A stretch of 64,000 nt of DNA from contig NZ_SLVX01000008.1 in NCBI RefSeq assembly GCF_004341885.1, forward strand, positions 187,745 to 251,744. The letters are read 5' to 3'. Source of the DNA: Shinella granuli (lineage in GTDB: Bacteria > Pseudomonadota > Alphaproteobacteria > Rhizobiales > Rhizobiaceae). The translations under genes and the position numbers were made by a program. Below, piece after piece: positions 47,776 through 63,993 of the stretch (position 1 is its first letter; every line of letters starts with the position of its first letter). Under the pieces are notes generated by a model, which did not search any database, had not been told where the DNA came from, and saw only the letters and a list, made by a program, of their open reading frames with translations.

Positions 47776-48252
47776 CTAGAACGGCAGGCGTGCATTGTCC
47801 TTGACGTTCTTCATGACGAAGAAGGTCCGCGTCTGCCGGACGCCGGGCAGCGCGATGAGTTTGTGACCATGCAGCTTGTTGAAATCCGCCATGTCTCGAA
47901 CGCGGATCTTGAGAAGATAGTCGAAGTCACCGGCCACCAGGTTGCAGTCCAGCACCTCCTTCAGTTCGAGCACCGCCCCCTCGAATGCCGCAAAGCTCTC
48001 CGGGGTCGATCGATCCAGTACGACGCCGACCATGACCAGCGCCCCCAGCCCGACCGAGGCCGGCGCGATCTCGGCCCGAACACCGGTAATGTAGCCCGCT
48101 TCGAACAGGCGCTGGGTGCGCCGATGGCAGGTCGCCGGGCTGGCATTCACCCGGCTGGCCAGTTCCGCATTGGTGAGGCGCCCTTCGACCTGGAGCGTGC
48201 GCAGGATGCGCAGATCGGTACGGTCCAGAGGAGCCTTGGAAGAATCTTCCAT
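47776..48252 (-). CDS. acdR: Lrp/AsnC-family regulator of ACC deaminase (AcdR)
   Basis: A 158-residue Lrp-type regulator: N-terminal HTH (LDRTDLRILRTLQVEGRLTNAELASRVNASPATCHRRTQRLFEAGYI) and a C-terminal RAM/AsnC ligand domain (VMVGVVLDRSTPESFAAFEGAV ... VAGDFDYLLKIRVRDMADFNKL). Divergent, immediate neighbour of acdS, which is the classical acdR position in rhizobia and other ACC-deaminase bacteria. It should activate acdS in response to ACC. Start ATG 48250-48252; an in-frame ATG at 48264 would add four residues. Confidence 0.9.
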   Translation of the reverse strand: MEDSSKAPLDRTDLRILRTLQVEGRLTNAELASRVNASPATCHRRTQRLFEAGYITGVRAEIAPASVGLGALVMVGVVLDRSTPESFAAFEGAVLELKEVLDCNLVAGDFDYLLKIRVRDMADFNKLHGHKLIALPGVRQTRTFFVMKNVKDNARLPF

Positions 48253-48263
48253 ATTCTTATCCA

Positions 48264-48276
48264 TTATGGTTCATAA
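48264..48276. promoter_or_regulatory. Lrp-box-like dyad in the acdR-acdS gap
   Basis: Inverted repeat TTATG-GTT-CATAA, at the acdR side of the 154-base divergent gap. Lrp-box elements in acdS promoters are AT-rich dyads of this kind. Only one clear copy was seen. Confidence 0.4.
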
Positions 48277-48406
48277 ACCTCATTTCAGCGCCAGTCTATC
48301 ACGACAACTACGTGAAGCCAGGCGAACTTCGGAAGCACCTTTCAGGAAAAGCGCACTATTCTGCGGATGACGTGCAAACACCAATCCACCGTTTCCGGAG
48401 CTCCCG

Positions 48407-49426
48407 ATGTCCCTTCTCGAAAAGTTCGAACGCTACCCTCTTACATTCGGCCCGACCCCGATCGAGCACCTGCCCCGCCTGACCGAAGCGCTGGGCGGCA
48501 AGGTGCAGATCTACGCCAAGCGCGACGACTGCAATTCGGGCCTGGCCATGGGCGGCAACAAGCTGCGCAAGCTGGAATATATCGTGCCGGACGCAATCGC
48601 TTCGGGCGCCGACACGCTGGTCTCGATCGGCGGGGTGCAATCGAACCACACGCGCATGGTCGCCGCGACCGCCGCCAAGATCGGCATGAAATGCGTGGTG
48701 ATCCAGGAAAAATGGGTGCCGCACTATGACGCCGTCTATGACCGCGTCGGCAACATCCTGATGACCCGCCTGATGGGCGCCGACAGCCGCCTCGTCGACG
48801 ACGGCTTCGACATCGGCATCCGCAAGAGCTGGGAAGACGCGATCCAGTCGGTCAAGGACGCCGGCGGCAAGCCCTATCCGATCCCCGCCGGCGCCTCGGT
48901 GCACAAATATGGCGCCCTCGGCTATGTCGGCTTCGCCGAGGAGGTTGCCGAACAGGAAGAGGCGCTCGGTTTCACCTTCGACTACATCGTCGTCTGCGTC
49001 GTCACGGGCTCCACCCAGGCCGGCATGATCGTCGGCTTTGCCGCGCAGGATCGCGCCGACCGGGTGATCGGCATCGACGCCTCCGGAACGCTGGACCAGA
49101 CGAGGGCGCAGGTGCGGTCCATCGTCGACAACACGTCCGAACTGGTCGGCCTTGGCCGCACGGTCCGCGAGGACGAGATCGTCATCAATCCCGACTATGC
49201 CTATCCGGCCTACGGCGTTCCCTCGGACGAGACCAACGACGCCATCCGCCTCGCCGCCCGCACCGAGGCGATGATCACCGACCCGGTCTACGAGGGCAAG
49301 TCGATGCAGGGAATGATCGACCTGACGCGCAAGGGTTTCTTCCCGGAAGGGTCGCGGGTGCTCTATGCGCATCTCGGCGGTGCGCCGGCGCTCAACGGCT
49401 ACAGCTACTATTACAGGGAGGGCTGA
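48407..49426 (+). CDS. acdS: 1-aminocyclopropane-1-carboxylate (ACC) deaminase
   Basis: A 339-residue fold-type II PLP enzyme cleaving ACC, the ethylene precursor, into ammonia and 2-oxobutyrate. The PLP lysine lies in [10 protein letters not shown] and the pocket serine in GGVQSNHTR. The residues that separate true ACC deaminase from D-cysteine desulfhydrase are present: Tyr295-Glu296 ([10 protein letters not shown]) and Leu323 ([10 protein letters not shown]). ATG 48407 follows CCGGAGCTCCCG. With AcdR next door this is a functional-looking plant-growth-promoting module: it lowers plant ethylene and feeds nitrogen. Confidence 0.96.
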
Positions 49427-50867: not shown

Positions 50868-51290
50868 ATGCTGTATTCTGAAAAAATGACAAGTACAGAC
50901 AAAAAAGTAAGGTACTTACCTAAAAGTGAGCAAGGCGCGTATACGCGTGAGACCGCGGCCGCAGGCGTCGAACAGGCGCTGAAGCTGCTTGAGGGACGCT
51001 GGAAGCTGGTGATACTTTTCCATCTGTTCGGCGGCCATGTGATGCGCTTCTCCGATCTCGAACGAGCAATTCCCGCGGTCTCGCAGAAGATGCTGATCCA
51101 GCAGTTGCGACAGATGGAGAAGGACGGAATCGTCCGCCGCATCGTCCATCACCAGGTTCCGCCGAAGGTCGAGTATGCGCTGACGGATTGGGGCCAGGCG
51201 CTGTGTCCGGCGCTAGATGCACTGCTTACATGGGCCGCCGACCGTCCCCCCTTGGAGACCTCCGCCGCCACAGACGAAACGGCGCAATAG
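50868..51290 (+). CDS. HxlR-family transcriptional regulator
   Basis: A 140-residue winged-helix HxlR regulator: ALKLLEGRWKLVILFHLFGGHVMRFSDLERAIPAVSQKMLIQQLRQMEKDGIVRR and PPKVEYALTDWG are the family core. ATG 50868 has AAGGA five bases upstream, whereas ATG 50886 has none. The unusually AT-rich first 17 codons contain an inverted repeat (GTAAG-GTA-CTTAC, 50907-50919) that could be its own operator. Such regulators commonly sense aldehydes or quinones and control the divergent reductase. Confidence 0.88.
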   Translation: MLYSEKMTSTDKKVRYLPKSEQGAYTRETAAAGVEQALKLLEGRWKLVILFHLFGGHVMRFSDLERAIPAVSQKMLIQQLRQMEKDGIVRRIVHHQVPPKVEYALTDWGQALCPALDALLTWAADRPPLETSAATDETAQ

Positions 51291-51737
51291 TCGTCGAGAC
51301 GTCATGAGCCGTCTCCGGGGCGGAGCGCTGCTCCCGCCTCGATCATGTGAACATGGTTTTGAACCTCTGTCCGCTGACGGCCGGCGACATGCTGGCCGCA
51401 TGGCTCAGGGCAAACAGCGTCTCCGTCGTGCTGCTCGATGCCGCGCCCGGGCCAGCGCTCGCAAGCGCGTTGCGGGGCGGCGGGAAGGCCGTCTCACTTC
51501 TCTCGTTCAAACAGCCGAACCAGACCTCACCCTCAATCGGCGGCAAGCCCCTCCCAGACGCTACAGTTTCCGCCCGGTTCATCTCAGGGCATAATTTTCT
51601 ACTATTTATATAGAAAAAGAACGACCTGTCTTTCTCAGGGGCGCGCCGCTCCGTACGTTCTAGGCATGCCACGACCGGATAGCAGGACGCTTCTCGAGTT
51701 CGGGCGTCCAACCAGGCTCAAACAGCAGGAACCGATC
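51291..51737. promoter_or_regulatory. Promoter region of the metal-chelate operon
   Basis: These 447 bases precede the first ABC binding-protein gene. A weak 88-codon plus-strand frame (51347-51613) has no recognisable domain or SD and was not called. The last 130 bases hold an AT-rich patch and the TetR-type site at 51618-51635. Confidence 0.5.
51618..51659 (+). promoter_or_regulatory. TetR-type operator and promoter (site A)
   Basis: Palindrome AGAACGAC-CT-GTCTTTCT (51618-51635), with 8-bp arms differing at one position. Its right arm runs into TTTCTC (51631-51636), 17 bases before TACGTT (51654-51659). Two further copies with the same spacing lie at 59474 and 60377. The start site would be near 51666, about 70 bases before the binding-protein ATG. 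Confidence 0.65.
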
Positions 51738-52844
51738 ATGTCTCGTGCAGTCTTGAAATCCCGCCGCACCGCCGGAATAGGCGCAGCGTTTCTCCTGTCG
51801 GCCGCACTTGCCGTCGGCTTCTCGGCCCCCGCCAAGGCGGAGGATCGGCAGACGGTGACGATCACAGACGAACTCGGCCGCGAGGTGACGTTGCCCGTGC
51901 CGGTGAAGGCGGTCTATCCGGATCTCTGGTATCAGACGGAGATCGTCCGGGCGATCGGCGCCGGCAAGACGATCGTCGCCGTAGACCAGACCGCCGATCC
52001 GCGCAAGAACACCGCAAACAAGGACTATTTCTCGGAGTTCGCCGACGTACCGGATGCCGGCCATTTCGACGGCCCGAACTGGGAGACGATCGCGACCTCG
52101 GGCGCCGAGGTGTTCTTCGCGCGCCGCAACTCGCCCTGGCAGGATGCCGAGGAGAAGCTGAAGCCGTTCGGCATAGAGGTCGTGGTCGTCAGCACCTGGG
52201 ATCCGAAGGTGCTGCGGGCGCAGCTGCCGAACATCGGCAAGATCTTCGGCGCGGAAAAGGGCGCTGCCGACCTCGCGCAGCTTTACGACGACATCGAAAA
52301 GGTCCTGACCGAGAAGCTGAAGGGTGTCGAGCCGAAGACGGTCTACTTCGAGAACAACGCCGATTTCGTCACGTCCCTTCCCGGCTCCGGCTGGCACGAC
52401 ACGATCGTCCTCGGCGGCGGCCAGAACATCTTCGGCGACATCAAGATCGCCAACACCGGGAGCGCGTCCGTCCATACCTATACGGTCGACCCCGTCGAAA
52501 TCATCAACCGCAATCCCGACGTGATCATCCACAACGGTGTTGACGGCCTGGCCTCCGGCTACGAGCCCTGGGACCAGAAGCAGCTCGCCGATCAGTCCGA
52601 CCGCATTGCCGGCCGCGCCGGCTGGAGCGCGATCAAGGCCGTTCAGGACAAGAACGTCTTCGTCTTCAGCAACTTCTTCTTTTCCGCGCTGGGCAAGCAG
52701 GTCGGCGCCCTTGCGGTCGCCAAATGGCTCTATCCCGACCGCCTGGCCGATGTCGATGTCGACGCCTACTTCGCCCGCTGGCTCGAAGCGCAGGGCGTGA
52801 AGCCGCGGCCGGTTTCCGACTACGCCTACAAGCTCGGCGGTTGA
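51738..52844 (+). CDS. Periplasmic binding protein of a metal-chelate (siderophore/B12-type) ABC importer
   Basis: A 368-residue class III (helical backbone) binding protein like FecB/BtuF. Signal peptide about residues 1-34 (ending APAKA). VTITDELGREVTLPVPVKAVYPDLWYQTEIVRAIGAGKTIVAVDQ is the typical N-terminal start, then WETIATSGAEVFFA and NPDVIIHNGVDG. It has an unusually aromatic- and asparagine-rich middle. ATG 51738 follows CAGGAACCGATC. First gene of the operon; ligand probably a metal-organic complex. Confidence 0.9.
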   Translation: MSRAVLKSRRTAGIGAAFLLSAALAVGFSAPAKAEDRQTVTITDELGREVTLPVPVKAVYPDLWYQTEIVRAIGAGKTIVAVDQTADPRKNTANKDYFSEFADVPDAGHFDGPNWETIATSGAEVFFARRNSPWQDAEEKLKPFGIEVVVVSTWDPKVLRAQLPNIGKIFGAEKGAADLAQLYDDIEKVLTEKLKGVEPKTVYFENNADFVTSLPGSGWHDTIVLGGGQNIFGDIKIANTGSASVHTYTVDPVEIINRNPDVIIHNGVDGLASGYEPWDQKQLADQSDRIAGRAGWSAIKAVQDKNVFVFSNFFFSALGKQVGALAVAKWLYPDRLADVDVDAYFARWLEAQGVKPRPVSDYAYKLGG

Positions 52845-52896
52845 GCCCCCCCTTCGCCGACGCACCGCAGCGCGCAACCGATTAGCGAGGATTGCA

Positions 52897-54012
52897 ATGA
52901 GTTCCATCGAGACAGGCCCCGATCTGGCCGGCGCTCCCGGCCGGGGCCGGGGTGCCGGGAAATCCCGGCGCTCCCGTGACCGCTATGCGTTCCAGAACGC
53001 CGCGATCGCTTTCGGACTGGTCGCAGTGCTGGTCACCGCGGTCATCGGGATCCAGATCGGCACGTCGGGGGCAACGCTCGGCGACGTCTTGCAGACGTTC
53101 TGGGCGAAGGTGACGGGCGCCGTGCCCGCGGACCGCGCAACGCTCCAGATCCAGACCGTCATCTGGGAACTGCGCGTGCCGCGCATCATGCTGGCTATCC
53201 TCGGCGGCGCCGCGCTGGCGGTCGCAGGCACGCTCTTCCAGGGGCTCTTGCGCAATCCGCTCGTGAGCCCCTATACGCTCGGCATCGCACCGGCGGCGGC
53301 CTTCGGTGCATCGCTCGCGATCGTCCTGTTCGGGGCGACCGCCGGCAGCGCCGCGCTCTCGCTCGTGTTCGGCGCCCTGCTGTTTTCCTTCCTCAACACC
53401 GCATTGGTGCTGTCGCTGGCCTCGACGCGGAACCTCAATCCCACCTCGCTCATCCTCGTCGGCATCGCCCTGTCGCAATTGTTCGGCGCTCTCACGGCCT
53501 GCATCCAATACTTCGCCGAGGATGAGATCCTCGCCGCCATCGTCCGCTGGACCTGGGGCTCGGTCAACAATTCCGCCTGGTATCAGGTGCTGGTGCTGTT
53601 CGCCCTGCTCGGCATCGCCTTCCCCTACATCCGCTACCGCAGCGGCGCCCTCAACGCCATTGCCTTTGCCGGCGACGATTCCGCCAAGAGCCTCGGCGTC
53701 GCGGTCTCCCGGGTGCGGCTGGAAACCATCGCCATCGCCGCCACACTGACCGCCGTCACCATCGCCTTTACCGGCATCATTGGCTTCGTCGGTCTGGTCG
53801 CGCCCCATATCGCGCGGCTGGTGGTCGGTTCCAACCACCGCTTCCTCACGACCTTCTCGGCCATCATCGGCGCGCTCTTGCTCGTCGTCTCCGATGCCGT
53901 CGGCAGGCTCGTCATTTCGCCGGGCGTCATTCCGGTCGGCATCATCGATGCCTTGGTCGGCGCGCCCATCTTCCTCTACCTCATCCTCACTCGGCAAAAG
54001 GCGATCGAATGA
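52897..54012 (+). CDS. FecCD-family ABC permease
   Basis: A 371-residue permease with about ten transmembrane segments and the FecCD hallmarks RVPRIMLAILGGAALAVAGTLFQGLLRNPLVSPYTLGI and GFVGLVAPHIARLVVGSNHR, ending PVGIIDALVGAPIFLYLIL. A 45-residue basic N-terminal extension (RGRGAGKSRRSRDR) precedes the first helix. A single permease gene implies a homodimer. Overlaps the ATPase by 4 bases. Confidence 0.93.
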   Translation: MSSIETGPDLAGAPGRGRGAGKSRRSRDRYAFQNAAIAFGLVAVLVTAVIGIQIGTSGATLGDVLQTFWAKVTGAVPADRATLQIQTVIWELRVPRIMLAILGGAALAVAGTLFQGLLRNPLVSPYTLGIAPAAAFGASLAIVLFGATAGSAALSLVFGALLFSFLNTALVLSLASTRNLNPTSLILVGIALSQLFGALTACIQYFAEDEILAAIVRWTWGSVNNSAWYQVLVLFALLGIAFPYIRYRSGALNAIAFAGDDSAKSLGVAVSRVRLETIAIAATLTAVTIAFTGIIGFVGLVAPHIARLVVGSNHRFLTTFSAIIGALLLVVSDAVGRLVISPGVIPVGIIDALVGAPIFLYLILTRQKAIE

Positions 54013-54860
54013 CCCTCAGGATTGACTCCCTCGTCGTTGGCTACGGAAAGAGAGAGGTCGTCAAAGGCGCGACCCTCCAGGTCAGGAAAGGCGAACTGGT
54101 GGGGCTGCTCGGCTCCAACGGCTCCGGAAAATCCACCCTGATCAAGACCATTGCCGGCATCAACCGCCATACGCGCGGCTCGATCACCTGGAATGGCGGA
54201 ACGGACCTCGCGGCGCTGCCGCGGCGGGAACTGGCGAAAATCGTCGCCTATGTGCCCCAGTCCATCGGCCTTTCCTTCGCCCTCGACATCAAGGAGGCGG
54301 TCCTCCTGGGGCGCACCCCCTATTTCGGCACCCGCCCGCGGGACGACGACTGGGATCATGTGGAAGCGGCGATGCGCCTGCTCGGCCTCGACGAACTCGG
54401 CGACCGCGCCGTGACCGAACTCTCGGGCGGCCAGGGCCAGCGCGTGCTGATCGCCCGCGCCCTGGCGCAGGATCCGGAAATCCTGCTGCTCGACGAGCCG
54501 ACCAGCGCCCTCGACATCCGCTACCAGTGGCAGACGCTGAGCGTCGCGCGGGCGGTCACGCGGAAGAACAACGTCGCCGGCGTGATCGCCATCCACGACC
54601 TGAACCAGGCGGCCCGCTTCACCGACCGCGTCGTGTTCCTGCATGACGGCGAGGTCATCGCCGACGGTCCGCCGGCCGACGTCTATTCGCCGGAACTGAT
54701 CAAGCGGGTCTACGGCGTCGATGTCGAGCTCTCCGCCTACAAGGGCTTCGTTCAGGTCCATCCGCTTTCGGAGCACGCCGAGCACCATCACCGGCCGGCG
54801 CCGTTCGCCCCGGCCTTCACGCCGCGGCCCGCCGAAGGACGGCTGGAACTCCAGGCCTGA
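54009..54860 (+). CDS. Metal-chelate ABC transporter ATPase with His-rich tail
   Basis: A 283-residue FecE/BtuD-type ATPase: Walker A GSNGSGKS (35-42), LSGGQGQRVLIARAL, Walker [14 protein letters not shown] and AIHDLNQAARF. The last 35 residues extend past the usual end and are histidine-rich (His251, 256, 259, 260, 261 in HPLSEHAEHHHR), possibly metal-sensing. ATG 54009 overlaps the permease stop. It completes an importer of the iron/cobalamin superfamily. Confidence 0.93.
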   Translation: MTLRIDSLVVGYGKREVVKGATLQVRKGELVGLLGSNGSGKSTLIKTIAGINRHTRGSITWNGGTDLAALPRRELAKIVAYVPQSIGLSFALDIKEAVLLGRTPYFGTRPRDDDWDHVEAAMRLLGLDELGDRAVTELSGGQGQRVLIARALAQDPEILLLDEPTSALDIRYQWQTLSVARAVTRKNNVAGVIAIHDLNQAARFTDRVVFLHDGEVIADGPPADVYSPELIKRVYGVDVELSAYKGFVQVHPLSEHAEHHHRPAPFAPAFTPRPAEGRLELQA

Positions 54861-54891
54861 AGACCGCCACCATTTCTTGAGGACGACCGCC

Positions 54892-56211
54892 ATGACGAAC
54901 AAATGGGGAGGCCGCACAAGCGAGCGCGGCCAGGGATTGGTCCTGGGCCTGCTCCTGGGCGGGACCGGACAGACGAAGAAGCCCGGAAGGGACGGGCCGA
55001 CCGACAACCTGCTCGACATCGACGCCTATATCGAGCAGGCCCGGCAGGCCGAGCGCGGCAAGATCCACACGATCTTCCTCGCCGACGCCCTCGTCACCAG
55101 CGAGACGGCGCCGAAGCCCGGACTGGAGCCCGTCACCCTGCTGAGCGCCCTTGCCGCCCGCACGTCGCGGATCGGCCTCATCGGCTCCATCTCGACCTCG
55201 TTCACCGAGCCCTACAACCTTGCCCGCCAGGTCCTCTCGCTCGATCACATCTCGGGCGGACGGGCGGGCTGGAACCTCGTCACCTCCTCGGCCGGCGAGA
55301 AGAACTTCGGCAAGCCGCTGCCCGCCCATGACGACCGCTATGCCATCGCGGAGGAGTTCGCCGGCGTCGTCCAGGCGCTCTGGGAGAGCTGGGAGCGCGA
55401 CGCCGTGACCTATGACGACAGCGGGCGGCAGCGTGTCGATGCCAGGAAGGTCCACCGGATCGACTGGAGCAGCCGGCATTTCTCCGTTCAGGGTCCGCTC
55501 AACGTCTCGCGCAGCCCGCAGGACAAGCCGATCCTCGCCCAGGCCGGCTCGTCGGCCGAGGGACGCCAGCTCGGCGCGCGGATCGCGGACGTCATCTTCA
55601 CGACCGGCCTGACCGAAACCGAGCCGTCCATCGAGATCTACCGGGATTTCAAGCAGCGCGCGTCGGCTTTCGGCCGCTCGCCGGATGCCATCAAGATCCT
55701 GCCGGGCGTGGCCCCGGTCATCGGCTCGACGGACGAGGAGGCCAGGCGCTTCTGGCGAAATGTCATCGACGACATCGATTTCGAGGAAGGGCGCAAATCG
55801 CTCGCCAGCCAGTTCGGCGGCGTGGACTTCGAGGGGATCGACCTCGATGCGCCGATCCCCGTCGCCGAACTGCCCCAGACGGCGAAGGTGGAGGGCCGGC
55901 GGTCCCGGTTCGGCGTCTTCCGCGACCTGATCGAAAGCGGGAAGGTGCGCACGGTGCGCGATCTCATCATCTATCATTCCAGCGGCGCCGGGCACTGGTT
56001 CCCGATCGGCTCCGTGGAAAACATCGCCGATCAGTTGCAGGACCGCTACGAGCGCGGCGCAACCGACGGCTTCAACTTCCTCGCCTTCACGCTGAAATAC
56101 GAGCTCGGCCTCAGCGCGCTGACGGAACATCTCATTCCGGAACTCCAGCGCCGCGGCATCTTCCACCACGACTACCAGCACGAAACCCTGAGACAGAACC
56201 TCGGGGTCTGA
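54892..56211 (+). CDS. FMN-dependent monooxygenase of the NtaA/SnaA/DszA (luciferase-like) family
   Basis: A 439-residue luciferase-like monooxygenase, the flavin-using component of a two-component system. Features include GLLLGGTGQ near the N-terminus, HTIFLADALVTS, PVTLLSALAARTSRIGLIGSISTSFTEPYNLARQVLSLDHISGGRAGWNLVTSS and PILAQAGSSAEGRQLGA. The family includes nitrilotriacetate, EDTA, pristinamycin and dibenzothiophene sulfone monooxygenases. Its place directly after a metal-chelate importer favours an aminopolycarboxylate- or chelator-type substrate. No flavin reductase is encoded in the window, so FMNH2 must come from elsewhere. Confidence 0.9.
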   Translation: MTNKWGGRTSERGQGLVLGLLLGGTGQTKKPGRDGPTDNLLDIDAYIEQARQAERGKIHTIFLADALVTSETAPKPGLEPVTLLSALAARTSRIGLIGSISTSFTEPYNLARQVLSLDHISGGRAGWNLVTSSAGEKNFGKPLPAHDDRYAIAEEFAGVVQALWESWERDAVTYDDSGRQRVDARKVHRIDWSSRHFSVQGPLNVSRSPQDKPILAQAGSSAEGRQLGARIADVIFTTGLTETEPSIEIYRDFKQRASAFGRSPDAIKILPGVAPVIGSTDEEARRFWRNVIDDIDFEEGRKSLASQFGGVDFEGIDLDAPIPVAELPQTAKVEGRRSRFGVFRDLIESGKVRTVRDLIIYHSSGAGHWFPIGSVENIADQLQDRYERGATDGFNFLAFTLKYELGLSALTEHLIPELQRRGIFHHDYQHETLRQNLGV

Positions 56212-56263
56212 GCCGGCGCCGCTGCCCCGGCAGCAGCCGTCGCGTAACGGAGACAAGAAAGCG

Positions 56264-57292
56264 ATGACCCGATATATCATCATCGGCGCGGGCGCCGTCG
56301 GCGCAAGCCTTGCGGCACAGTTCGAGCTTTCCGGCGTGGACTATGCGCTCGTCGGCAGAGGCGCCCAGATCCGCCATATCCTTGAGCATGGCCTCACCTA
56401 TCGGCGTCCCTCCGGCACGCGCCAGCTCCGCCTGAAGGCCTCCGATACGGCGAGCCCGCCGCCCCTGCGCCGGGACGACATATTGCTCCTCACGGTCAAG
56501 GCACAGGATGCCGGGGGCGCCGTTTCCGATTGGGCCTGGCGTCCCCTCGACGGCACCGATGGCGAGACGGCGTCGAGCCTGCCGATCGTGACGTTCCAGA
56601 ACGGGCTTGCCACGGAATCCATAGCGCTGCGTCGCTTCGCCAATGTCTACGGCGCCAGTATCCTCACCCCTGCCCGCTTTACCGAGACGGGCACGGTGGT
56701 CGTCGGCGGTCATCCGCAGGTCGCCGTCGTCACCGTCGGGCGCTACCCGCGTGGCACGGACGATATTGCCGCCCAGGTCGTCGCCGACCTCGCACGGTCC
56801 GAATACATCGCCGAGACCACTTCGGATATCCGCCGCTGGAAGGCAGCCAAATTGCTCCACAATGTGCGCAATGTGCTCGAACTGTTCGATGGCGCAAACG
56901 AGGAGCAGGCCCTGGTGTCCGAGGCTCTTGTCGAGGAAGCGCGCAAAGCGCTGACTGCTGCGGGCTACAGCCTGGCTTCCCCCTCGGAACGCACGATCAG
57001 CATTGCCCATTGGGTAACGGCTGAAAACAGCGGCATCGAACCGGGACAGCAATCGACCTGGCAAAGCTTCAGGCGCGGCGCATCGAGCGAGGTCGACTAT
57101 CTCAATGGCGAGATCGTTCTGCTCGGGCGTCTTTCCGGCATCGCGACGCCCTATAACGAGGCTGCCCAGCAGCTTGCCGGCCGTGCCGCCGGGCAACCTG
57201 CCTTCGAGAGATTGCTGCCGCTGGAAAGGCTTCAGGCACATGCGAAGACCATCTCCGATGCAACGGGCGTCACCGCGCCGCATGCTGCCTGA
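56264..57292 (+). CDS. Ketopantoate reductase-family (PanE/ApbA) oxidoreductase
   Basis: A 342-residue NADPH-dependent dehydrogenase of the ApbA/PanE fold. The N-terminal Rossmann motif IIGAGAVGASLAAQFELSG (5-23) is followed by LTVKAQD, the NG motif TFQNGLATE and the C-terminal helical domain with WKAAKLLHNVRN and SSEVDYLNGEIVLLGRLSGIATPYN. The E-V-D-Y-LNG-E segment is characteristic. True pantothenate synthesis is unlikely in this catabolic context; reduction of a 2-oxo acid made by the cluster is a reasonable guess. It lies 52 bases after the monooxygenase gene. Confidence 0.85.
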   Translation: MTRYIIIGAGAVGASLAAQFELSGVDYALVGRGAQIRHILEHGLTYRRPSGTRQLRLKASDTASPPPLRRDDILLLTVKAQDAGGAVSDWAWRPLDGTDGETASSLPIVTFQNGLATESIALRRFANVYGASILTPARFTETGTVVVGGHPQVAVVTVGRYPRGTDDIAAQVVADLARSEYIAETTSDIRRWKAAKLLHNVRNVLELFDGANEEQALVSEALVEEARKALTAAGYSLASPSERTISIAHWVTAENSGIEPGQQSTWQSFRRGASSEVDYLNGEIVLLGRLSGIATPYNEAAQQLAGRAAGQPAFERLLPLERLQAHAKTISDATGVTAPHAA

Positions 57293-57312
57293 AGGCGGCA
57301 GCGGCCACCACC

Positions 57313-57381
57313 GTTGCGCGCGATTGTGCGCTTGCCGTCTTCGACCTTGCCCCTGGCAAGTACCAACCTGCAAAGAGATGA
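57313..57381 (+). pseudogene. 3' fragment of a TetR-family gene
   Basis: One frame reads VARDCALAVFDLAPGKYQPA, then KR and stop. The first 11 residues are identical to VARDCALAVFD near the end of the TetR protein at 59590 (60097-60129). The two 33-base stretches differ at four positions, all synonymous third codon positions, so they are homologous coding sequence, not chance. The rest of the gene is absent. It marks the former 3' end of a second tetR next to the isomerase gene. Confidence 0.7.
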
Positions 57382-57385
57382 CACA

Positions 57386-57988
57386 ATGACCCGCAGCATC
57401 GACTACTTCTTCGGCATCGGATCTCCGTGGGCCTATATCGGTCTCGACCCGTTTCTCGACCTCGCCCGGCGCTTCGGCGCAGAGGTCCGGCCCTATCTCA
57501 TCCCGCTCATCGTCGAAAATGGCGGCATCTATTCACGCGACCGGCCGGATGCCCGCCGCGCCTATTGGCTGAAGGACCTTCAGCGCTGGGCGGCGCTGCG
57601 CGGCAAGGTCGTCGATTTCTCCAACCGGGCCGGACTTTCCGATCCGACACCGGCGGGTTTTCTCATTCTGGCCGCCCAGCTTGAGGGCGCGGACTGGATT
57701 GGCCTGACGCGAGCCTTGCAGGCGCCCTATTGGAGCCGCAAGGCCGATATCGGCGATATCGCGGTGCGCCGGCCGATCATCCAGGCCGCGGGGTTCGATG
57801 CGGACGCTCTGGAGACCCGGGCGGCGCAGGACGATGTCGCCGCCCTCTGGCAGTCGAACCGCGAGTTTGCAAAGGAGGCGGGTGTTTTCGGCCTGCCGAC
57901 CTTCCGCTACCAGGGCGAACTCTATTGGGGCCAGGACAGCCTGCCCTTCCTGGAACGCCACCTCGAAGGCGCACGGCTCATCGCCTGA
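57386..57988 (+). CDS. 2-hydroxychromene-2-carboxylate isomerase-family (DsbA-like) protein
   Basis: A 200-residue DsbA/kappa-GST-fold protein: SIDYFFGIGSPWAYIGLDPFLDLARRFGAEVRPYLIPL at the N-terminus and AKEAGVFGLPTFRYQGELYWGQDSLPFLERHL at the C-terminus, with the cis-Pro GLPTF. The CxxC cysteine is replaced by serine in GSPWAY, as in glutathione-dependent isomerases. Known members isomerise naphthalene-pathway intermediates, but homologues are widespread in other pathways. ATG 57386 follows a weak AGAGATGA. Confidence 0.87.
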   Translation: MTRSIDYFFGIGSPWAYIGLDPFLDLARRFGAEVRPYLIPLIVENGGIYSRDRPDARRAYWLKDLQRWAALRGKVVDFSNRAGLSDPTPAGFLILAAQLEGADWIGLTRALQAPYWSRKADIGDIAVRRPIIQAAGFDADALETRAAQDDVAALWQSNREFAKEAGVFGLPTFRYQGELYWGQDSLPFLERHLEGARLIA

Positions 57989-58010
57989 CCGGATACCCGT
58001 GGAGACAGAC

Positions 58011-58067
58011 ATGCCCCTTGCACTGCCCGACGCCACCGGTCCCGCGAAGCTGGCCATCGGCATATGA
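58011..58067 (+). CDS. Short upstream ORF coupled to the FAD oxidase gene
   Basis: An 18-codon frame, MPLALPDATGPAKLAIGI, with a strong SD (GGAGACAGAC) directly before its ATG and a stop overlapping the next gene's ATG (ATGA). The oxidase has no SD of its own, so translation through this frame probably drives it. It may be a coupling ORF or the N-terminal stub of a deleted gene. Confidence 0.45.
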   Translation: MPLALPDATGPAKLAIGI

Positions 58068-59443
58068 CCGCACTTCCTCAAGAACTCGTCGGGCAACTGA
58101 AGGCGCGCTTCGCCGAGCGCTTCACGACCAATGCAGCGGTGCTGGAGCAGCACGGCCGCGGTGAATCCCACCATGTGGCGGCCCTGCCGGATGGTGTCGT
58201 CTTCGCCGGGAGCACGCAGGAGGTTGCCGATGTCGTGACGCTTTGCGCGCAACACCGCGTTCCCGTCATTCCCTATGGCGCAGGCACGTCGCTGGAAGGG
58301 CATCTCACGGCCGTAAAGGGCGGCATCTCGCTCGACCTTTCGCATATGACCGAGATCCTGCGCATCAGCCAGGAAGACCTCGACTGCACCGTACAGGCCG
58401 GCGTCACCCGCGAGCAGCTGAACACCTGGCTGCGCGACAAGGGCCTGTTCTTCCCCATCGATCCCGGCGCGAATGCCTCGATCGGCGGCATGGTCTCTAC
58501 CCGTGCTTCCGGCACCAATGCTGTCCGTTACGGCACGATGCGTGAAAACGTGCTGTCCCTGACGGTGGTTCTGCCGAACGGCGAGATCATCCAGACGGGT
58601 GGTCGAGCGCGAAAATCCTCCGCCGGGTATGACCTGACGCGGCTCTTCGTCGGCGCCGAAGGGACGCTTGGCGTCGTCACCGAGGTTACGCTGCGGCTCT
58701 ACGGCATTCCGGAGCACACCGTTGCCGCGCTCTGCTCCTTCCCAAGCGTCCAACAGGCGATCGACACCGCGATCGCCGTCGTGCAGCTTGGCATTCCCGT
58801 CGCGCGCATGGAGTTCATGGACCGCGGGCTGATCGCCGCGGTCAACGCCTATTCGGGCCTGTCCCTGAAGCTGGAGGATACGCTGGCCTTCGAATTCCAC
58901 GGCCCCGTCGGCGCCGTCAAGGAGCAGGTCGCGCTCGTCGCATCGCTGGTGCAGGAAAACGGCGGCAACGACTTCGAATGGGCGACATCGCCCGAGGAGA
59001 GAAACCGGCTGTGGAAGGCACGCCACAGCGCCTTCTACGCCGTCGTTTCGCAGCGACCGAATGCCAGGGGCTGGTCGTCCGACGTCTGCGTTCCGGTTTC
59101 AGAACTCGCCGGCTGCGTCCTGCACACCCGCGAATTGCTGAAGGGCTTTCCCGTCCCGGCCGCCATCCTCGGCCATGTCGGCGACGGCAACTACCACGTC
59201 GTCTTCGCCGTCGATCCTTCGAGCGAAAACGAGCTGGCCGCCGTCGCTGCCATCAACAAGAAGATGGTCGAAAAGGCACTCTCGGTCGGCGGAACGTCGA
59301 CGGGCGAGCACGGCGTCGGCACGGGCAAGATCGCCTATCTCAGACAGGAACACGGCAAGGCCGTGGACCTCATGGCCGTCATCAAACACGCCCTCGATCC
59401 GCTCGGCATCATGAACCCCGGAAAGATCCTGCCGACGGCATGA
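58064..59443 (+). CDS. FAD-linked 2-hydroxy acid oxidase/dehydrogenase (GlcD-like)
   Basis: A 459-residue flavoenzyme of the GlcD/D-lactate dehydrogenase (VAO) family. FAD-binding PCMH domain (about 40-220): VIPYGAGTSLEGHL, GANASIGGMVSTRASGTNAVRYGTMRENVL, RKSSAGYDLTRLFVGAEGTLGVVTE. The C-terminal cap has HVGDGNYHVVFAVDP and GGTSTGEHGVGTGK, ending HALDPLGIMNPGKILP. It oxidises D-lactate, glycolate or similar 2-hydroxy acids. In an NtaA-type pathway, two-carbon glyoxylate/glycolate products would make it useful. Start ATG 58064 overlaps the 18-codon ORF. Confidence 0.92.
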   Translation: MTALPQELVGQLKARFAERFTTNAAVLEQHGRGESHHVAALPDGVVFAGSTQEVADVVTLCAQHRVPVIPYGAGTSLEGHLTAVKGGISLDLSHMTEILRISQEDLDCTVQAGVTREQLNTWLRDKGLFFPIDPGANASIGGMVSTRASGTNAVRYGTMRENVLSLTVVLPNGEIIQTGGRARKSSAGYDLTRLFVGAEGTLGVVTEVTLRLYGIPEHTVAALCSFPSVQQAIDTAIAVVQLGIPVARMEFMDRGLIAAVNAYSGLSLKLEDTLAFEFHGPVGAVKEQVALVASLVQENGGNDFEWATSPEERNRLWKARHSAFYAVVSQRPNARGWSSDVCVPVSELAGCVLHTRELLKGFPVPAAILGHVGDGNYHVVFAVDPSSENELAAVAAINKKMVEKALSVGGTSTGEHGVGTGKIAYLRQEHGKAVDLMAVIKHALDPLGIMNPGKILPTA

Positions 59444-59473
59444 CGACGATCATCCACGGAAAGACTAAAAATA

Positions 59474-59515
59474 GGAACGACCTGTCTTTCTCTTCATCGC
59501 CGGATGGCCTAGAAC
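59474..59515 (+). promoter_or_regulatory. TetR-type operator and promoter (site B)
   Basis: GGAACGAC-CT-GTCTTTCT at 59474-59491, then TTTCTC (59487-59492), 17 bases, TAGAAC (59510-59515), in the gap before tetR. It is identical to site A over 17 consecutive bases. It implies autoregulation of the TetR gene. Confidence 0.65.
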
Positions 59516-59589
59516 CTTGCTCGCCTCATGCTGAACGGTCTCCGTCGTCTGAGGACCATAGGTGACGTACTCCAATCCGAAGCAATCCC

Positions 59590-60162
59590 ATGAAAGAACC
59601 CATATCAGACCAGATCGTCACAGCCGCCGGAGCGCTTTTCTACGGCGAAGGCATTCGTGCTGTCGGCATAGATCGCATCATCGAGGAAGCGAACGTCGCA
59701 AAGGCGACGCTCTATCGACACTTCCCGTCGAAAGACCATCTCGTCGCGGCCTATCTTCAGGATCGCCACGAACGGGTTATCCGTTCCCTCCACGAAGCTT
59801 TGGAAGCCCAATCGGACCCGCGAAATCAGATCAAACTGATTTTCGAACGTCTGCACGAAAAGGCCGATACCCCTGAATTTCGCGGCTGCGCCTTTGCGCT
59901 TGCCGTTGCCGAACACGGCGATTCCGACCGGATCGTGTCCGTCGCCCGAACGCACAAGAAGATGGTCGGCGACATTTTCCGGGATATCATGTCGAAGGCC
60001 AACGTCGAGGGAAAGCAGGCAGGTGCACATCTTTGCCTGCTTTATGAAGGGGCGCTTGCAACCGTCGCCGTCGGACGCGATCCCCAGGCCGTTCTCGTCG
60101 CGCGCGACTGTGCGCTCGCCGTTTTCGACGCGGCCACCCTCTCCGCCAAAAGCCCGCGCTGA
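59590..60162 (+). CDS. TetR-family transcriptional repressor
   Basis: A 190-residue TetR/AcrR regulator: N-terminal HTH (QIVTAAGALFYGEGIRAVGIDRIIEEANVAKATLYRHFPSKDHLVAAYL) and a C-terminal ligand/dimer domain (FRGCAFALAVAEHGDSDRIVSVARTHKKMVGDIF). It is central in the cluster, and the operator-like palindromes at 51618, 59474 and 60377 are placed to bring three promoters under its control. It probably responds to the imported substrate or a breakdown product. Confidence 0.9.
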   Translation: MKEPISDQIVTAAGALFYGEGIRAVGIDRIIEEANVAKATLYRHFPSKDHLVAAYLQDRHERVIRSLHEALEAQSDPRNQIKLIFERLHEKADTPEFRGCAFALAVAEHGDSDRIVSVARTHKKMVGDIFRDIMSKANVEGKQAGAHLCLLYEGALATVAVGRDPQAVLVARDCALAVFDAATLSAKSPR

Positions 60163-60376
60163 AGAGCACCTCTGTCCATCGATCGGCCGGAAACAGTCCA
60201 ATGTTCCTATTCTCTTGGAGCACTGGGCAATATGGGGTCGGCGACGCACCCGCCGTGCGGGTGTTCGAGGAAATGCGGTTTGCGGCCGGGAACGGCGATG
60301 CCGGACAGGCTTCGGGAAATGCTGATCCACCCCGTCGCGGAAATCGAACAAAATAATCCATAGATTTAGTAGAAAA

Positions 60377-60418
60377 AGAATAACCAGTCTTTCTCTCTGC
60401 TGGTCTCCTGCCTACGCT
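60377..60418 (+). promoter_or_regulatory. TetR-type operator and promoter (site C)
   Basis: AGAATAAC-CA-GTCTTTCT at 60377-60394, then TTTCTC (60390-60395), 17 bases, TACGCT (60413-60418), in front of the peptide/nickel-type ABC operon. It shares the right arm and both flanks (AGAAAAAGAA, TCTTTCTC) with site A. A start near 60425 argues that the binding protein begins at 60459, not at the ATG at 60426. Confidence 0.65.
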
Positions 60419-60458: not shown

Positions 60459-62111
60459 ATGACTGACCGCTTCCTCCCGTTCTCCCTTTCCCGGCGCCGC
60501 CTGCTGACAGCCACCGCGGTGCTGGCATTCGCCACCCTGGTTGGCACGGCGAATTTCACGCCCGTTCAGGCAGAGGACAGCGACGCCAATGGCGGCGACA
60601 TCACCTTCCTGATCGATTCCCTGGGAGACACCTGGATCCCCAACAACAGCGCGATCTCCAGCTTTCAGGGCCACATCTGGGGCCATGTCACCGACAAGCT
60701 TCTCTATGTCGATGCCGAGGGCAAGGTCAGCCCGTGGATTGCCGAACGCTGGGAGCAGAACGATGCTGCCACCGAGTTCACCCTGCATCTGAAGAGCGGC
60801 GTGACCTTCTCCGACGGCACTGCGCTCGATGCCGCGGCGGTCGTCGCCAATCTCGACATCTGGTATGCCGGCCGCAAGAGCGAGGGCATCAACCCGATCG
60901 GCCTCTTCCCGAAGACCTACGACCATGCCGAAGCTGTCGATGCGACGACGGTGAAGGTCTTCTTCAACAAGCCGACGCTCGGCTTCATCCCGACGCTCGG
61001 CTACCACGGCTCGATCCTCATCTCGCCGAAGACGCTCGCGCAGCCTGCCTCCGAGCAGGCGGACCTCAGCAAGACCTCGGGCAGCGGCCCTTATGTCGTC
61101 GACTCCTGGAAGGAAGGCGACTTCGTCAAACTGGTCAAGCGCCAGGACTACAACTGGGGACCGGCAGCCGTCGGCCATACCGGTCCGGCATTCCTGGACA
61201 CGATCACCTACAAGCTCGTGTCCGAACCCTCGCTGCGCGTGGCTTCCGTCCAGTCGGGCCAGGCCGATGTTGCCTACAACGCCTCCCCTCAGGAGTTGAA
61301 GTCGCTCAAGGACGAGGGCTTCACGATTGCCACCCCGCGCTATCTCGGTTTCGTCAACGGATGGGCCGTCAACACGAAGCTGCCCCCCTATGACGACGTG
61401 AAGGTGCGCCAGGCCCTTCAGGCCGGCATCGATCGCCAGGAGATCATCGACACCGTCTACACCCCCGACTGGAAGCTCGCGACCTCCTTCATCCAGAGCA
61501 ACGTGCCGGGCGCAACCGACCACAGCGACCTGCTGGCCTACAATCCCGAAAAGGCCGAAACGCTGCTCGACGAGGCGGGCTGGGTGAAGGGCGCCGACGG
61601 CATCCGCACCAAGGATGGCAAGCCGCTGTCGCTGACGCTCCACTCCAACCCCTATCTGGCGACGTCGAAGTCGGTCGACGAGCTCATCGCCCAGCAGCTC
61701 GGCAAGATCGGCTGGAAGGTCGATATCCGCGCCTATGACGTCGTGACCTTCGGCGAGAAGGTCAAGTATGGCGGACCGGCCATCCCGGCCTACGAGGTGA
61801 CGCGCAGCTTCATCGACGCCGGCACCGTCGCCGGCATCCTCACCAATGCCAACAATGGCGAGAACTGGTTCGCCCTCGACGACCGCGATCCGAAGCTCAA
61901 CGACCTGCGCGACAAGATCGCCGGCGCCGGCTCCACCGAGACCCGCAGCCCGCTCCTGGATGAGCTGCAGACCTACATTCTCGACCAGGGCTACTTCATC
62001 CCCCGCACGCAGATCGTCCAGCGCATCTACGTGCAGTCCCCGGCGGTCAAGGGCGAAGTCTATAACGGGGTTGCCTATGCCAGCTACTACACGGCCAAGA
62101 AAAGCGACTGA
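60459..62111 (+). CDS. Peptide/nickel-type ABC transporter binding protein (Tat signal)
   Basis: A 550-residue family 5 solute-binding protein (DppA/NikA type). Twin-arginine-like signal FSLSRRRLLTATAVLAF, cleaved near residue 38 (TPVQA). Typical segments are VTDKLLYVDAEGKVSPWIAERWEQNDAATEFTLHLKSGVTFSDGTALDAAAVV, GSGPYVVDSWKEGDFVKLVKR and NPEKAETLLDEAGW. Tat export would allow binding a cofactor or folded ligand complex. ATG 60459 has CAGGA eight bases upstream and leaves a 34-base leader after promoter C. Ligand unknown: peptide, opine, metal chelate or similar. Confidence 0.92.
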   Translation: MTDRFLPFSLSRRRLLTATAVLAFATLVGTANFTPVQAEDSDANGGDITFLIDSLGDTWIPNNSAISSFQGHIWGHVTDKLLYVDAEGKVSPWIAERWEQNDAATEFTLHLKSGVTFSDGTALDAAAVVANLDIWYAGRKSEGINPIGLFPKTYDHAEAVDATTVKVFFNKPTLGFIPTLGYHGSILISPKTLAQPASEQADLSKTSGSGPYVVDSWKEGDFVKLVKRQDYNWGPAAVGHTGPAFLDTITYKLVSEPSLRVASVQSGQADVAYNASPQELKSLKDEGFTIATPRYLGFVNGWAVNTKLPPYDDVKVRQALQAGIDRQEIIDTVYTPDWKLATSFIQSNVPGATDHSDLLAYNPEKAETLLDEAGWVKGADGIRTKDGKPLSLTLHSNPYLATSKSVDELIAQQLGKIGWKVDIRAYDVVTFGEKVKYGGPAIPAYEVTRSFIDAGTVAGILTNANNGENWFALDDRDPKLNDLRDKIAGAGSTETRSPLLDELQTYILDQGYFIPRTQIVQRIYVQSPAVKGEVYNGVAYASYYTAKKSD

Positions 62112-62146
62112 TCCGCAATTCCACAAAGCAACGTGAGGTGACCGGC

Positions 62147-63154
62147 ATGAGGAATGCCTACCTGACCTACGCCGCAAAGCGTCTTGCCCAGGCCCTGGTC
62201 GTCATCCTGCTGACCTACGTCTTCACCTTTGTCGTGGTCAGCATTCTGCCGGGTGACCCCATCACCAACGTCCTGAACAATCCGCAGAGCGGGTTCACGC
62301 AGGAGGAGATCAAGGAGATCATCGCCGCCCAGGGCCTGGACAGGCCGGTGCTTGTCCAGCTCTGGTCGTCGTTCTCCGGCTTCGTCACCGGCGATCTTGG
62401 CCTGTCCATGCGCTCCCATCGGCCGGTGGCGACCCTGATCGCCGAGGTGCTTCCGTCGACGCTGGTCCTCGCGGCGTCGGGCCTTGCGGTCGCGCTGGTC
62501 CTGGCCGCCACGGTCGCCTACGGCACCCAGTTCGTTCCCAAGAGGTACGGCCAGGGGCTGCTGCGCGGCTTCCCGTCGCTGTTCCTGTCCGTGCCGAATT
62601 TCGTCATCGGCCTGGTGCTGATCCATTTCTTCGGCTTCCAGCTCGGCGTCTTCCGCGTCATCGAACCGGACAGCGTCTGGGCAACCCTCTTTGCGGCGAT
62701 CGCGCTCGGCATTCCGATTTCCGCCCAGATTGCCGAAGTGCTGATCGCAAACCTCGACAACGAGGCGGCGCAGGAATATGCGGCCGTCGCGCGCGGTCGC
62801 GGCCTGGGTCAGGCGCGCCTCTTCGCCAAGCACCTGCTCAAGCCTTCGTCACTTCCGGTCGTCACCGTCATCGCGCTCACCATCGGCGAATTGCTGGGCG
62901 GATCCCTCATCACCGAGACGGTGTTCGGGCGCACGGGCATCGGCAGTCTGGTGCAGCGGTCGGTCAGCACGCAGGACCTGCCCGTCCTGCAAGCGATCGT
63001 CTCGCTCGCGGCGGTGGTTTTCGTGCTCGTCAACCTGATCGCCGACCTGCTCTACCCGCTGCTCGACCCGCGCGTGACGCTTCTCGGCGGACCGAAATCC
63101 CGTGCCGATACCGAGGACGGCACGACCGGCGTTTCTCCGGCGGTGGCATCATGA
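62147..63154 (+). CDS. Peptide/nickel-type ABC permease (DppB-like)
   Basis: A 335-residue permease with six transmembrane segments: YAAKRLAQALVVILLTYVFTFVVVSILPGDP at the N-terminus, GDLGLSMRSHRPV, and the EAA region YAAVARGRGLGQARLFAKHLLKPSSLPVVTVIA followed by GGSLITETVFGRTGIG. ATG 62147 has GAGGTG upstream. It pairs with the next gene's product. Confidence 0.93.
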   Translation: MRNAYLTYAAKRLAQALVVILLTYVFTFVVVSILPGDPITNVLNNPQSGFTQEEIKEIIAAQGLDRPVLVQLWSSFSGFVTGDLGLSMRSHRPVATLIAEVLPSTLVLAASGLAVALVLAATVAYGTQFVPKRYGQGLLRGFPSLFLSVPNFVIGLVLIHFFGFQLGVFRVIEPDSVWATLFAAIALGIPISAQIAEVLIANLDNEAAQEYAAVARGRGLGQARLFAKHLLKPSSLPVVTVIALTIGELLGGSLITETVFGRTGIGSLVQRSVSTQDLPVLQAIVSLAAVVFVLVNLIADLLYPLLDPRVTLLGGPKSRADTEDGTTGVSPAVAS

Positions 63155-63993
63155 CCCTCACCTCCTATTCCACCACCCCCGGCATTTCCATCCGCAAAAG
63201 CCGTCTTCGCGTGCCGCCGACCGTCACGCTCTCCTTTGCGATCGTCGCGCTGGTGCTGGCCTGGTCACTCGCCCCGGCCCTCTTCACGAGCCTCAGCCCG
63301 GTCAACGGCTTTCCCGCCGACAAGCTGCTGGGGCCAAGCTTCACCCATTGGTTCGGCACCGACCATCTGGGCCGCGACGTCTACACCCGCGTCGTCTATG
63401 GCACCGCCTCCTCGGTTTCGAGCGCGCTCATCGCCGTCGTCATCGGCGTCGTCGCCGGCGGCATCATCGGTCTGCTCGCCGGTTTCTTCGGCGGCTGGGT
63501 GGATACGGTGCTTGCCCGCCTGGTCGATGTGCTGCTCGCCATCCCGAAATTCCTGCTGGCCGTCATCGTCGTGACGGCGATCGGTTTCGACACCATCAAT
63601 GCGGCCATCGCCACCGGCGTTTCGGCAGTTGCCGTCTTTGCGCGCGTCATGCGCTCGGAAGTCATCAAGACCCGGCGCGCGACCTTCGTCGAAGCCTCGT
63701 TCCTCCTGGGAGGCACGCGCGCGCATATCCTGTGGCGGCATGTCCTGCCGAATGCGTCGCGCTCGGTGCTGCCGCTCGCGGTGCTCCATTTCGGGGACTC
63801 GATCCTCGTCATCGCCAGCCTTGCCTTCCTCGGATACGGCGACCCGCCGCCGGCCTCCGACTGGGGCCTGCTGATCTCGATCGGCAAGGATTACCTCAAA
63901 TGGCCGTGGCTGGTTTACGCCCCCGCCTTTGTCACGATCGCGACCGTCCTCTCTGTGAACAGGATCAGCCGATGGCTACGCAAGACAGACTGA
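63151..63993 (+). CDS. Peptide/nickel-type ABC permease (DppC-like)
   Basis: A 280-residue permease with HWFGTDHLGRDVYTRVVYGTASSVSSALIAVVIG, the classical GTDxxGRDxxSR motif of DppC/NikC. It also has the EAA loop TRRATFVEASFLLGGTRAHILWRHVLPNA and AFLGYGDPPPASDWGLLI. It starts with the ATGA overlap and is followed by an overlapping ATPase start. Confidence 0.93.
   Translation: MTLTSYSTTPGISIRKSRLRVPPTVTLSFAIVALVLAWSLAPALFTSLSPVNGFPADKLLGPSFTHWFGTDHLGRDVYTRVVYGTASSVSSALIAVVIGVVAGGIIGLLAGFFGGWVDTVLARLVDVLLAIPKFLLAVIVVTAIGFDTINAAIATGVSAVAVFARVMRSEVIKTRRATFVEASFLLGGTRAHILWRHVLPNASRSVLPLAVLHFGDSILVIASLAFLGYGDPPPASDWGLLISIGKDYLKWPWLVYAPAFVTIATVLSVNRISRWLRKTD

Follow-up and report, generated by a model that had tools for sequence, protein, structure and literature searches.

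A conserved TetR regulon of Shinella granuli with a predicted operator abutted by a second, putative sulfur-related regulatory box

Shinella granuli is a soil-dwelling bacterium related to the rhizobia. In a 64,000-nucleotide stretch of its contig NZ_SLVX01000008.1 (positions 187,745 to 251,744; hereafter, the window), a gene for a TetR-family protein lies between genes for a FecBCD-type importer with a flavin monooxygenase and genes for a peptide/nickel-type importer (Table 1). Comparison with related genomes gives good support to a conserved local TetR regulon with a predicted operator of 18 base pairs (bp). Directly upstream of that operator in structural-gene promoters we found a second dyad, the 23-bp box WTTTCTAY-N7-RTAGAAAW, which an earlier reading of the same DNA, made without database searches (the sequence-only reading), had not described. 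We consider it probable that the cluster serves organosulfur scavenging under two layers of control, with a general sulfur-limitation regulator, for which an Rrf2/CymR-like protein is a candidate, acting at the box and a substrate-specific TetR repressor acting at the operator.

A scan of the window with the operator pattern RGAANNACCWGTCTTTCT found exact matches at all three places reported by the sequence-only reading, and each showed the promoter layout described there, TTTCTC being followed by 17 bases and a hexamer beginning with TA (Table 1). With up to three mismatches the window contained four matches, the fourth being the opposite strand of site 1; a count of four was attained in 0 of 100 shuffles. 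The genome-wide motif search that the reading had named as a check detected the pattern with at most two mismatches at 10 places, comprising the three exact sites, one place with one mismatch and six with two. The one-mismatch site, AGAAAGACCTGTCTTCCT (C8:254590-254607), lies 2.8 kilobases (kb) past the window end and has the same spacing, TTCCTC being followed by 17 bases and TAACGT. Because it was outside the earlier reader's view, it provides an independent check of the pattern. Behind it are genes for an SsuD-like monooxygenase, an SfnB-like protein of the acyl-CoA-dehydrogenase fold, an MsuE-type FMN reductase and a 2-hydroxyacid dehydrogenase, and between the window end and this operon are the ATPase gene of the SBP_bac_5 (SBP5) importer and then a gene for a further luciferase-like monooxygenase (LLM2). 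Two of the six two-mismatch places, on contigs C14 and C43, were inspected and rejected as regulatory sites, both being inside coding sequence. The bare dyad GAANGACNNGTCNTTC was exact at three places in the genome, namely sites 1 and 2 and an intragenic place on C43 (C43:3712-3727; L013:3560-3900) beside a DnaB-helicase-like gene. The surroundings of this sole other exact dyad are perhaps a prophage, and its occurrence is likely due to chance.

Conservation was examined in the best 80 of 219 TetR loci (1.56 megabases of DNA), obtained by searching contigs with 23 aligned TetR sequences; these loci are related, so that neither operator nor box counts are independent. For the dyad GAANGACNNGTCNTTC we counted 54 exact copies and 110 with a single mismatch, as against 0 and 6 for the reversed dyad and means of 0.05 and 2.8 for 40 permuted dyads. 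In 78 of the 80 loci a site with A/G and T at its flanks was present no more than 700 bp before a FecB, NtaA, ApbA, TetR, SBP5 or SsuD gene, and the site, its position and the promoter spacing were all kept there, conservation in related clusters being a check that the sequence-only reading had named. It stood directly before tetR in 24 loci and before an ApbA gene upstream of tetR in 22 (46/80 together). Even where the TetR protein shared only 58-61% identity (L106, L108 and L109), the site was still found upstream of SsuD, at a distance of about 0.9 kb in L106. The claim that the spacer is exactly 17 bases held for the four home sites, but not for the relatives, where TA began 17, 18 or 19 bases past the 18-mer (29, 55 and 41 of 136 distinct contexts, with double counting possible) and spacers ranged from 16 to 18 bases; TA fell within 15-19 bases in 126 of these contexts. 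The 136 spacing contexts, like the 140 box contexts below, are those with A/G and T flanks outside the class 'none' (21 contexts, 7 of them so flanked and some of them SsuD promoters whose gene lies beyond the fetched DNA).

Does the TetR protein itself bind the dyad? It is conceivable that another conserved protein does so and that tetR is merely a neighbour, and two sets of observations speak for this and against our interpretation: genome G169 has an operator before SsuD, yet its best TetR shares only 36% identity, and L103 and L107 have a TetR gene with no operator in the fetched DNA. Against it, in a scan of 199 genomes of the family, the motif WGAAHGACCWGTCTTYCT (chosen after the sites had been seen) occurred in 5 and the TetR in 6, with both in 4 (Fisher p 1.2e-6), that is, in 4 of 6 genomes with the TetR versus 1 of 193 without it; the TetR search scored at most 16 candidates per genome, so that an absence is not exhaustive. 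In G009 and G120 the TetR was accompanied by variant sites only, the coordinates of G009 being those of the L088 genome. The position of the site before tetR or before the upstream ApbA gene in 46 loci likewise argues against a mere neighbour, as does the dyad itself, 18 bp being a size typical for TetR operators. We therefore regard binding by another protein as very improbable.

The 23-bp box abuts the operator at structural-gene promoters and is mostly absent where the operator stands directly before tetR. At least 12 of its 16 defined positions were matched in 113 of 116 structural-gene promoters (FecB 6/7, NtaA 1/1, ApbA 22/22, SBP5 56/56 and SsuD 28/30) versus 6 of 24 promoters directly before tetR, and in 0 of 140 contexts in the downstream control; the 12-of-16 threshold and the permitted shift of ±2 were chosen after the sites had been seen. 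In the home genome the scores were 16 before FecB, 14 before SsuD, 13 before SBP5 and 6 before tetR. The core of the degenerate box before SBP5 carries two mismatches and, taken alone, is no better than chance. Within the TetR regulon the -10-like TA lies 35-37 bases past the box. An UP-element was set aside as an explanation of the AT-rich stretch because the dyad has a fixed position and stands alone at other sulfur genes too. Since a dyad abutting the operator recurs at general sulfur-uptake genes, TetR is probably not the sole regulator. The proposal of the sequence-only reading that one repressor controls a complete uptake and degradation system can accordingly be retained in part: an autoregulated TetR regulon joining both importers and the flavin monooxygenase is supported by the conservation of site, position and spacing in 78/80 loci, but a fourth promoter lies outside the window and a second regulator probably acts at the abutting dyad.

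To see where the box occurs without the operator, we scanned 25 genome handles with one mismatch allowed; because the coordinates of G113 and G210, of G120 and G211, and of G009 and G212 are identical, these correspond to 22 distinct genomes. Four exact boxes were outside the TetR regulon. In L181 and L184 the box stands 84-85 bp before SsuA genes that scored above the model cut-off (233 and 227 versus 163.5). In L183 (3558-3974) it precedes an SsuA-like fragment, a 138-amino-acid open reading frame (ORF) that is seemingly only the first part of the gene, and in L186 it has an OsmC-like gene at 419 bp on one side and a MetQ-MetN-MetI set on the other (494 bp to MetQ; NlpA 290 bits). The other exact boxes are part of the TetR regulon, and those that were read have the operator directly after them (with two mismatches in L160 and L161); L226-L229 carry four exact boxes with the operator at the next base, and one exact box (G205:C8:14675) was assigned by coordinates alone, falling on the ApbA site of L053. 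Among the one-mismatch boxes, that of L191 has an NMT1/SsuA-like importer gene, under the cut-off, 0.4 kb downstream, those of L182 and L190 are at genes for FAD/NAD-binding proteins (PF13454), that of L187 is at an OsmC-like gene in a cluster with BisC, and that of L188 is at a gene for a 1-Cys peroxiredoxin, a type of protein linked to sulfate starvation. On home contig C6 a box is located at the end of an Rrf2 gene and is followed by genes for a PF13454 protein, the sulfate-binding protein CysP (460 bits against a cut-off of 288) and CysT (402 bits against 246). Weak matches on home contigs C7, C33 and C29 were dismissed as intragenic or without a sulfur link.

Two arrangements recurred around these boxes. 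The OsmC-like genes of L186 (3122-3673) and L187 (3088-3639), two places in one genome (Rhizobium straminoryzae), are both about 0.4 kb from the box and share a similar sequence after it. On C6 (L125:7285-12689 of G000) the Rrf2 gene and two genes for FAD/NAD-binding-like proteins, one confirmed as PF13454, stand directly before the sulfate ABC transporter, and the combination of Rrf2, PF13454 and box was found again in L190.

At the SsuA-type promoters of L181, L183, L184 and L191, a TANNNT hexamer begins 36 or 37 bases past the box. This agrees with the spacing in the TetR regulon, and SsuA-type importers thus possess, without TetR, a promoter core in which the box is near -60; the TetR operator seems to have been placed over the -35 region of that core. 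Several observations weigh against so uniform a picture. Two of the four exact outside examples are weakened by the fragmentary SsuA gene of L183 and the distant MetQ of L186. A sulfur link was missing at four of nine inspected one-mismatch boxes (L189, L194, L195 and L196). The distance from box to hexamer was 6 bases in L190, 11 on C6 (by eye) and 21 in L187 and L188, the two shortest spacings having a repressor-like geometry, and in L182 and L186 no such hexamer was present in the orientations tested.

In the mechanism that we propose, TetR would be a local repressor on the dyad AGAANGAC-NN-GTCNTTCT, covering the -35 region of four targets, namely tetR itself, the FecBCD/NtaA operon, the SBP5 importer/LLM operon and the SsuD/SfnB-like/MsuE operon, and would dissociate in the presence of an organosulfur substrate or metabolite. 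A general sulfur-limitation regulator would act through the abutting box, centred near -60 in the structural-gene promoters, which would need both sulfur shortage and the presence of the compound to be active. Since the box is mostly absent at tetR's own promoter (18 of 24 contexts), the supply of repressor would be independent of sulfur state, and in the 22 loci with a boxed site before ApbA and tetR behind it, tetR may be co-transcribed.

We think it most likely that the enzymes of the regulon act on an imported thioether, sulfoxide, sulfone or sulfonate through oxidation and cleavage of C-S bonds. The set comprises three FMN-dependent luciferase-like monooxygenases, an SfnB-like enzyme of the acyl-CoA-dehydrogenase fold and an MsuE-type FMN reductase, joined in relatives by a BisC-type S/N-oxide reductase. 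The reductase scored above the cut-off of TIGR03566 (216 versus 212.5 bits). The SsuD-like protein did not reach that of TIGR03565 (205 versus 518 bits) and has only a resemblance to the alkanesulfonate monooxygenase SsuD, the SfnB-like protein was far under its equivalog cut-off (91 versus 431), and LLM2 was under that of its nearest model, TIGR04027 (117 versus 413). An additional ORF cluster was present in 48 of 82 sources (the 80 TetR loci, the window and L011); the BisC S/N-oxide reductase model, whose cut-off is 1018, gave its sole scanned member (L038) a score of 937 bits.

By family names, the same genes could be taken for a regulon importing and oxidatively degrading a metal chelate or siderophore, such as a ligand resembling nitrilotriacetate or ethylenediaminetetraacetate, a ferric siderophore or a nickel complex. 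The FecB/FecCD/FecE importer, the Nik/Dpp-type importer and the NtaA/DmoA monooxygenase all suit this explanation, and FecBCD and Nik/Dpp importers are non-classical for sulfur, which counts against organosulfur scavenging. Among solved structures, the top relative of NtaA is 3sdo (286 bits), which was deposited under the name nitrilotriacetate monooxygenase, and EmoA is among the others (188 bits). NtaA is nevertheless nearer to the YtnJ and MoxC chains (281 bits) than to EmoA; we take YtnJ to be the same protein as CmoJ. Further matches were to DszA (196 bits) and dimethyl-sulfide monooxygenase (167 bits). The adjoining box, moreover, recurs at sulfonate and sulfate importers, and MsuE, SfnB-like and SsuD-like genes share the regulon. 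We consider chelate breakdown improbable and organosulfur scavenging the better account of this cluster.

As for the protein that reads the box, an Rrf2/CymR-like protein is the leading, though tentative, candidate. CysB was rejected, because the CysB-type model NF009327 gave no match at 1e-40 in any of nine genomes, with a positive control in Escherichia coli. In contrast, relatives of the Rrf2 protein P0121 (C21:31191-31652) were found in all 24 handles, representing 23 distinct genomes, and the motif CX8CX2CX5C was present in 25 of 25 candidate sequences read (from 26 loci, one of which gave none). The C6 Rrf2 protein, which is 43% identical to P0121 and is the source of the model scores, exceeded the cut-off of the Rrf2 superfamily model TIGR00738 (110 versus 73) and did not reach that of the CymR equivalog (78 versus 195 bits). 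On C6 and in L190 an Rrf2 gene is next to a box, and in L226 such a gene is found downstream of the SsuD operon. The site of the Rrf2 protein NsrR is given as 23 bp with a 7-bp centre in the available part of PMC9338935, a layout matching that of the box and counted in favour of an Rrf2 protein. The candidate global sulfur regulator proposed for Rhodococcus IGTS8 is an Rrf2 protein, according to the portion of PMC8557817 consulted.

Other data are less favourable to an Rrf2 protein. The gene for the universal Rrf2 candidate was near a box in 0 of four 16-kb regions and in the fetched DNA of 1 of 80 TetR loci (L051), and CTAY-N7-RTAG occurred in 3 of 26 Rrf2 candidate loci of 3 kb. The box is also compatible with the T-N11-A dyad of LysR-type regulators, and an alternative is that a LysR-type activator outside the CysB family binds it, all else in the organosulfur interpretation being equal. 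LysR-type proteins typically recognise T-N11-A sites and activate from a position near -60, and the interrupted dyad CTAY-N7-RTAG, the box centre near -60, the weak -35 region and the rarity of a box at the Rrf2 gene itself all fit. The absence of CysB-type matches in the nine genomes (other LysR families were not searched), the NsrR-like 23-bp layout with its 7-bp centre (PMC9338935, in part) and the Rrf2 genes on C6 and in L190 and L226 point the other way, and we hold a LysR-type activator to be somewhat unlikely. The usual place of the box near -60 suggests activation. We tentatively propose that the Rhizobiaceae, for which no CysB-type regulator was detected in the genomes tested, possess an undescribed sulfur-limitation regulon in which WTTTCTAY-N7-RTAGAAAW would be read by a CX8CX2CX5C Rrf2 protein, mostly from about -60, and substrate-specific repressors such as TetR would be added through an operator directly downstream, over -35; the resulting two-input promoter would be modular and conserved throughout the family.

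The features of the window are collected in Table 1. The DsbA-fold protein reads like, and presumably belongs to, the HCCA isomerase/GST-kappa group. Upstream of the regulon, the gene at 50868-51290 appears to encode an HxlR-type regulator, and at 47776-49426 a gene that is presumably for an Lrp-type regulator is divergent from an ACC-deaminase-like gene. In a Shinella genome, UYSO24 (L095:11350-17369), the GlcD and SBP5 matches fall into several overlapping pieces, as if frameshifted.

Table 1. Regulatory elements and genes of the TetR regulon in the window
Feature	Position	Strand	Basis
Box 1 TTTTCTACTATTTATATAGAAAA, predicted general sulfur-limitation box	51595..51617 (C8:239339-239361)	+	0 mismatches, 16/16; place kept in relatives
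TetR operator 1 AGAACGACCTGTCTTTCT (predicted)	51618..51635	+	exact pattern match
-10-like hexamer TACGTT	51654..51659	+	read from sequence; spacing kept in relatives
FecB-type substrate-binding protein (Peripla_BP_2)	51738..52844	+	70 bits
FecCD permease	52897..54012	+	272 bits
ABC ATPase, FecE/FhuC group	54009..54860	+	family model matches
NtaA/DmoA-family FMN-dependent monooxygenase	54892..56211	+	TIGR03860 above cut-off, 415 vs 279.7 bits
ApbA/PanE-type reductase	56264..57292	+	family model match
DsbA-fold protein	57386..57988	+	80 bits
FAD-linked oxidase, GlcD group	58064..59443	+	family model matches
TetR operator 2 GGAACGACCTGTCTTTCT (predicted), own promoter of tetR, without adjoining box	59474..59491	+	exact match; box score 6/16
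-10-like hexamer TAGAAC	59510..59515	+	read from sequence
TetR-family repressor, 190 amino acids	59590..60162	+	TetR_N 54 bits, cut-off 24; homologs found
Degenerate box TAATCCATAGATTTAGTAGAAAA abutting operator 3	60354..60376	+	13/16; same degenerate form at relatives' SBP5 promoters
TetR operator 3 AGAATAACCAGTCTTTCT (predicted)	60377..60394	+	exact pattern match
-10-like hexamer TACGCT	60413..60418	+	read from sequence
SBP_bac_5 substrate-binding protein (SBP5)	60459..62111	+	nearest NCBIfam TIGR04028, under cut-off (341 vs 468 bits)
DppB/NikB-type permease	62138..63154	+	family model matches
DppC/NikC-type permease	63151..63993	+	family model matches

The box offers a concrete site for finding the rhizobial sulfur regulator and a way of listing organosulfur genes in plant-associated bacteria, and a cluster that one would assign to iron, nickel or nitrilotriacetate by family names becomes a testable sulfur-scavenging system. 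Among the matches listed in a literature search, titles and abstracts contained nothing on this TetR regulon or on a sulfur box of Rhizobiaceae, the subscription literature being mostly outside the coverage, and the term 'Rrf2' was absent from the main text, as far as available, of two surveys of Proteobacteria regulons (PMC5343134 and PMC4239095).

Global sulfur control is exerted by CysB/Cbl in Gram-negative bacteria and by CymR in Bacillus, as set out in part of PMC8557817. The candidate described here resembles CymR, which governs cysteine and sulfur genes in Bacillus and Staphylococcus, in its proposed role as an Rrf2-family regulator of sulfur genes in general, and the C6 protein is matched by the CymR model, although far under its cut-off. 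It differs in that the candidates carry CX8CX2CX5C, whereas B. subtilis-type CymR (BsCymR) binds no Fe-S cluster according to the consulted text of PMC9338935, and in the usual place of the box near -60, which suggests activation; in its 23-bp dyad with a 7-bp centre, the box is like the NsrR site in that source. The nearest chemistry, by analogy, may be the CmoO/CmoJ pathway, in which S-alkylcysteines are salvaged via sulfoxides by flavoenzymes cleaving C-S bonds and CmoJ is termed a DszA homologue (PMC10863075, available portion). The window NtaA likewise matches DszA and YtnJ, but the importers differ, and no N-acetyltransferase or deacetylase is among the genes named here, neither having been searched for. 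The SsuD/MsuD-MsuE, SfnG/SfnB and DszA/DszC systems draw on the same families of enzymes, including the MsuE type, for which the reductase here scores above the cut-off, but the SsuD-like and SfnB-like proteins here are far under theirs, the importers are of the FecBCD and SBP5 types, and TetR is the local regulator. SBP5 and LLM2 are nearest to the KPN_01854/KPN_01858 families (TIGR04028 and TIGR04027), both under the cut-off. Taken against these systems, the TetR part is a further case of a known type of regulon, and the composite promoter with its rhizobial sulfur box is the novel element.

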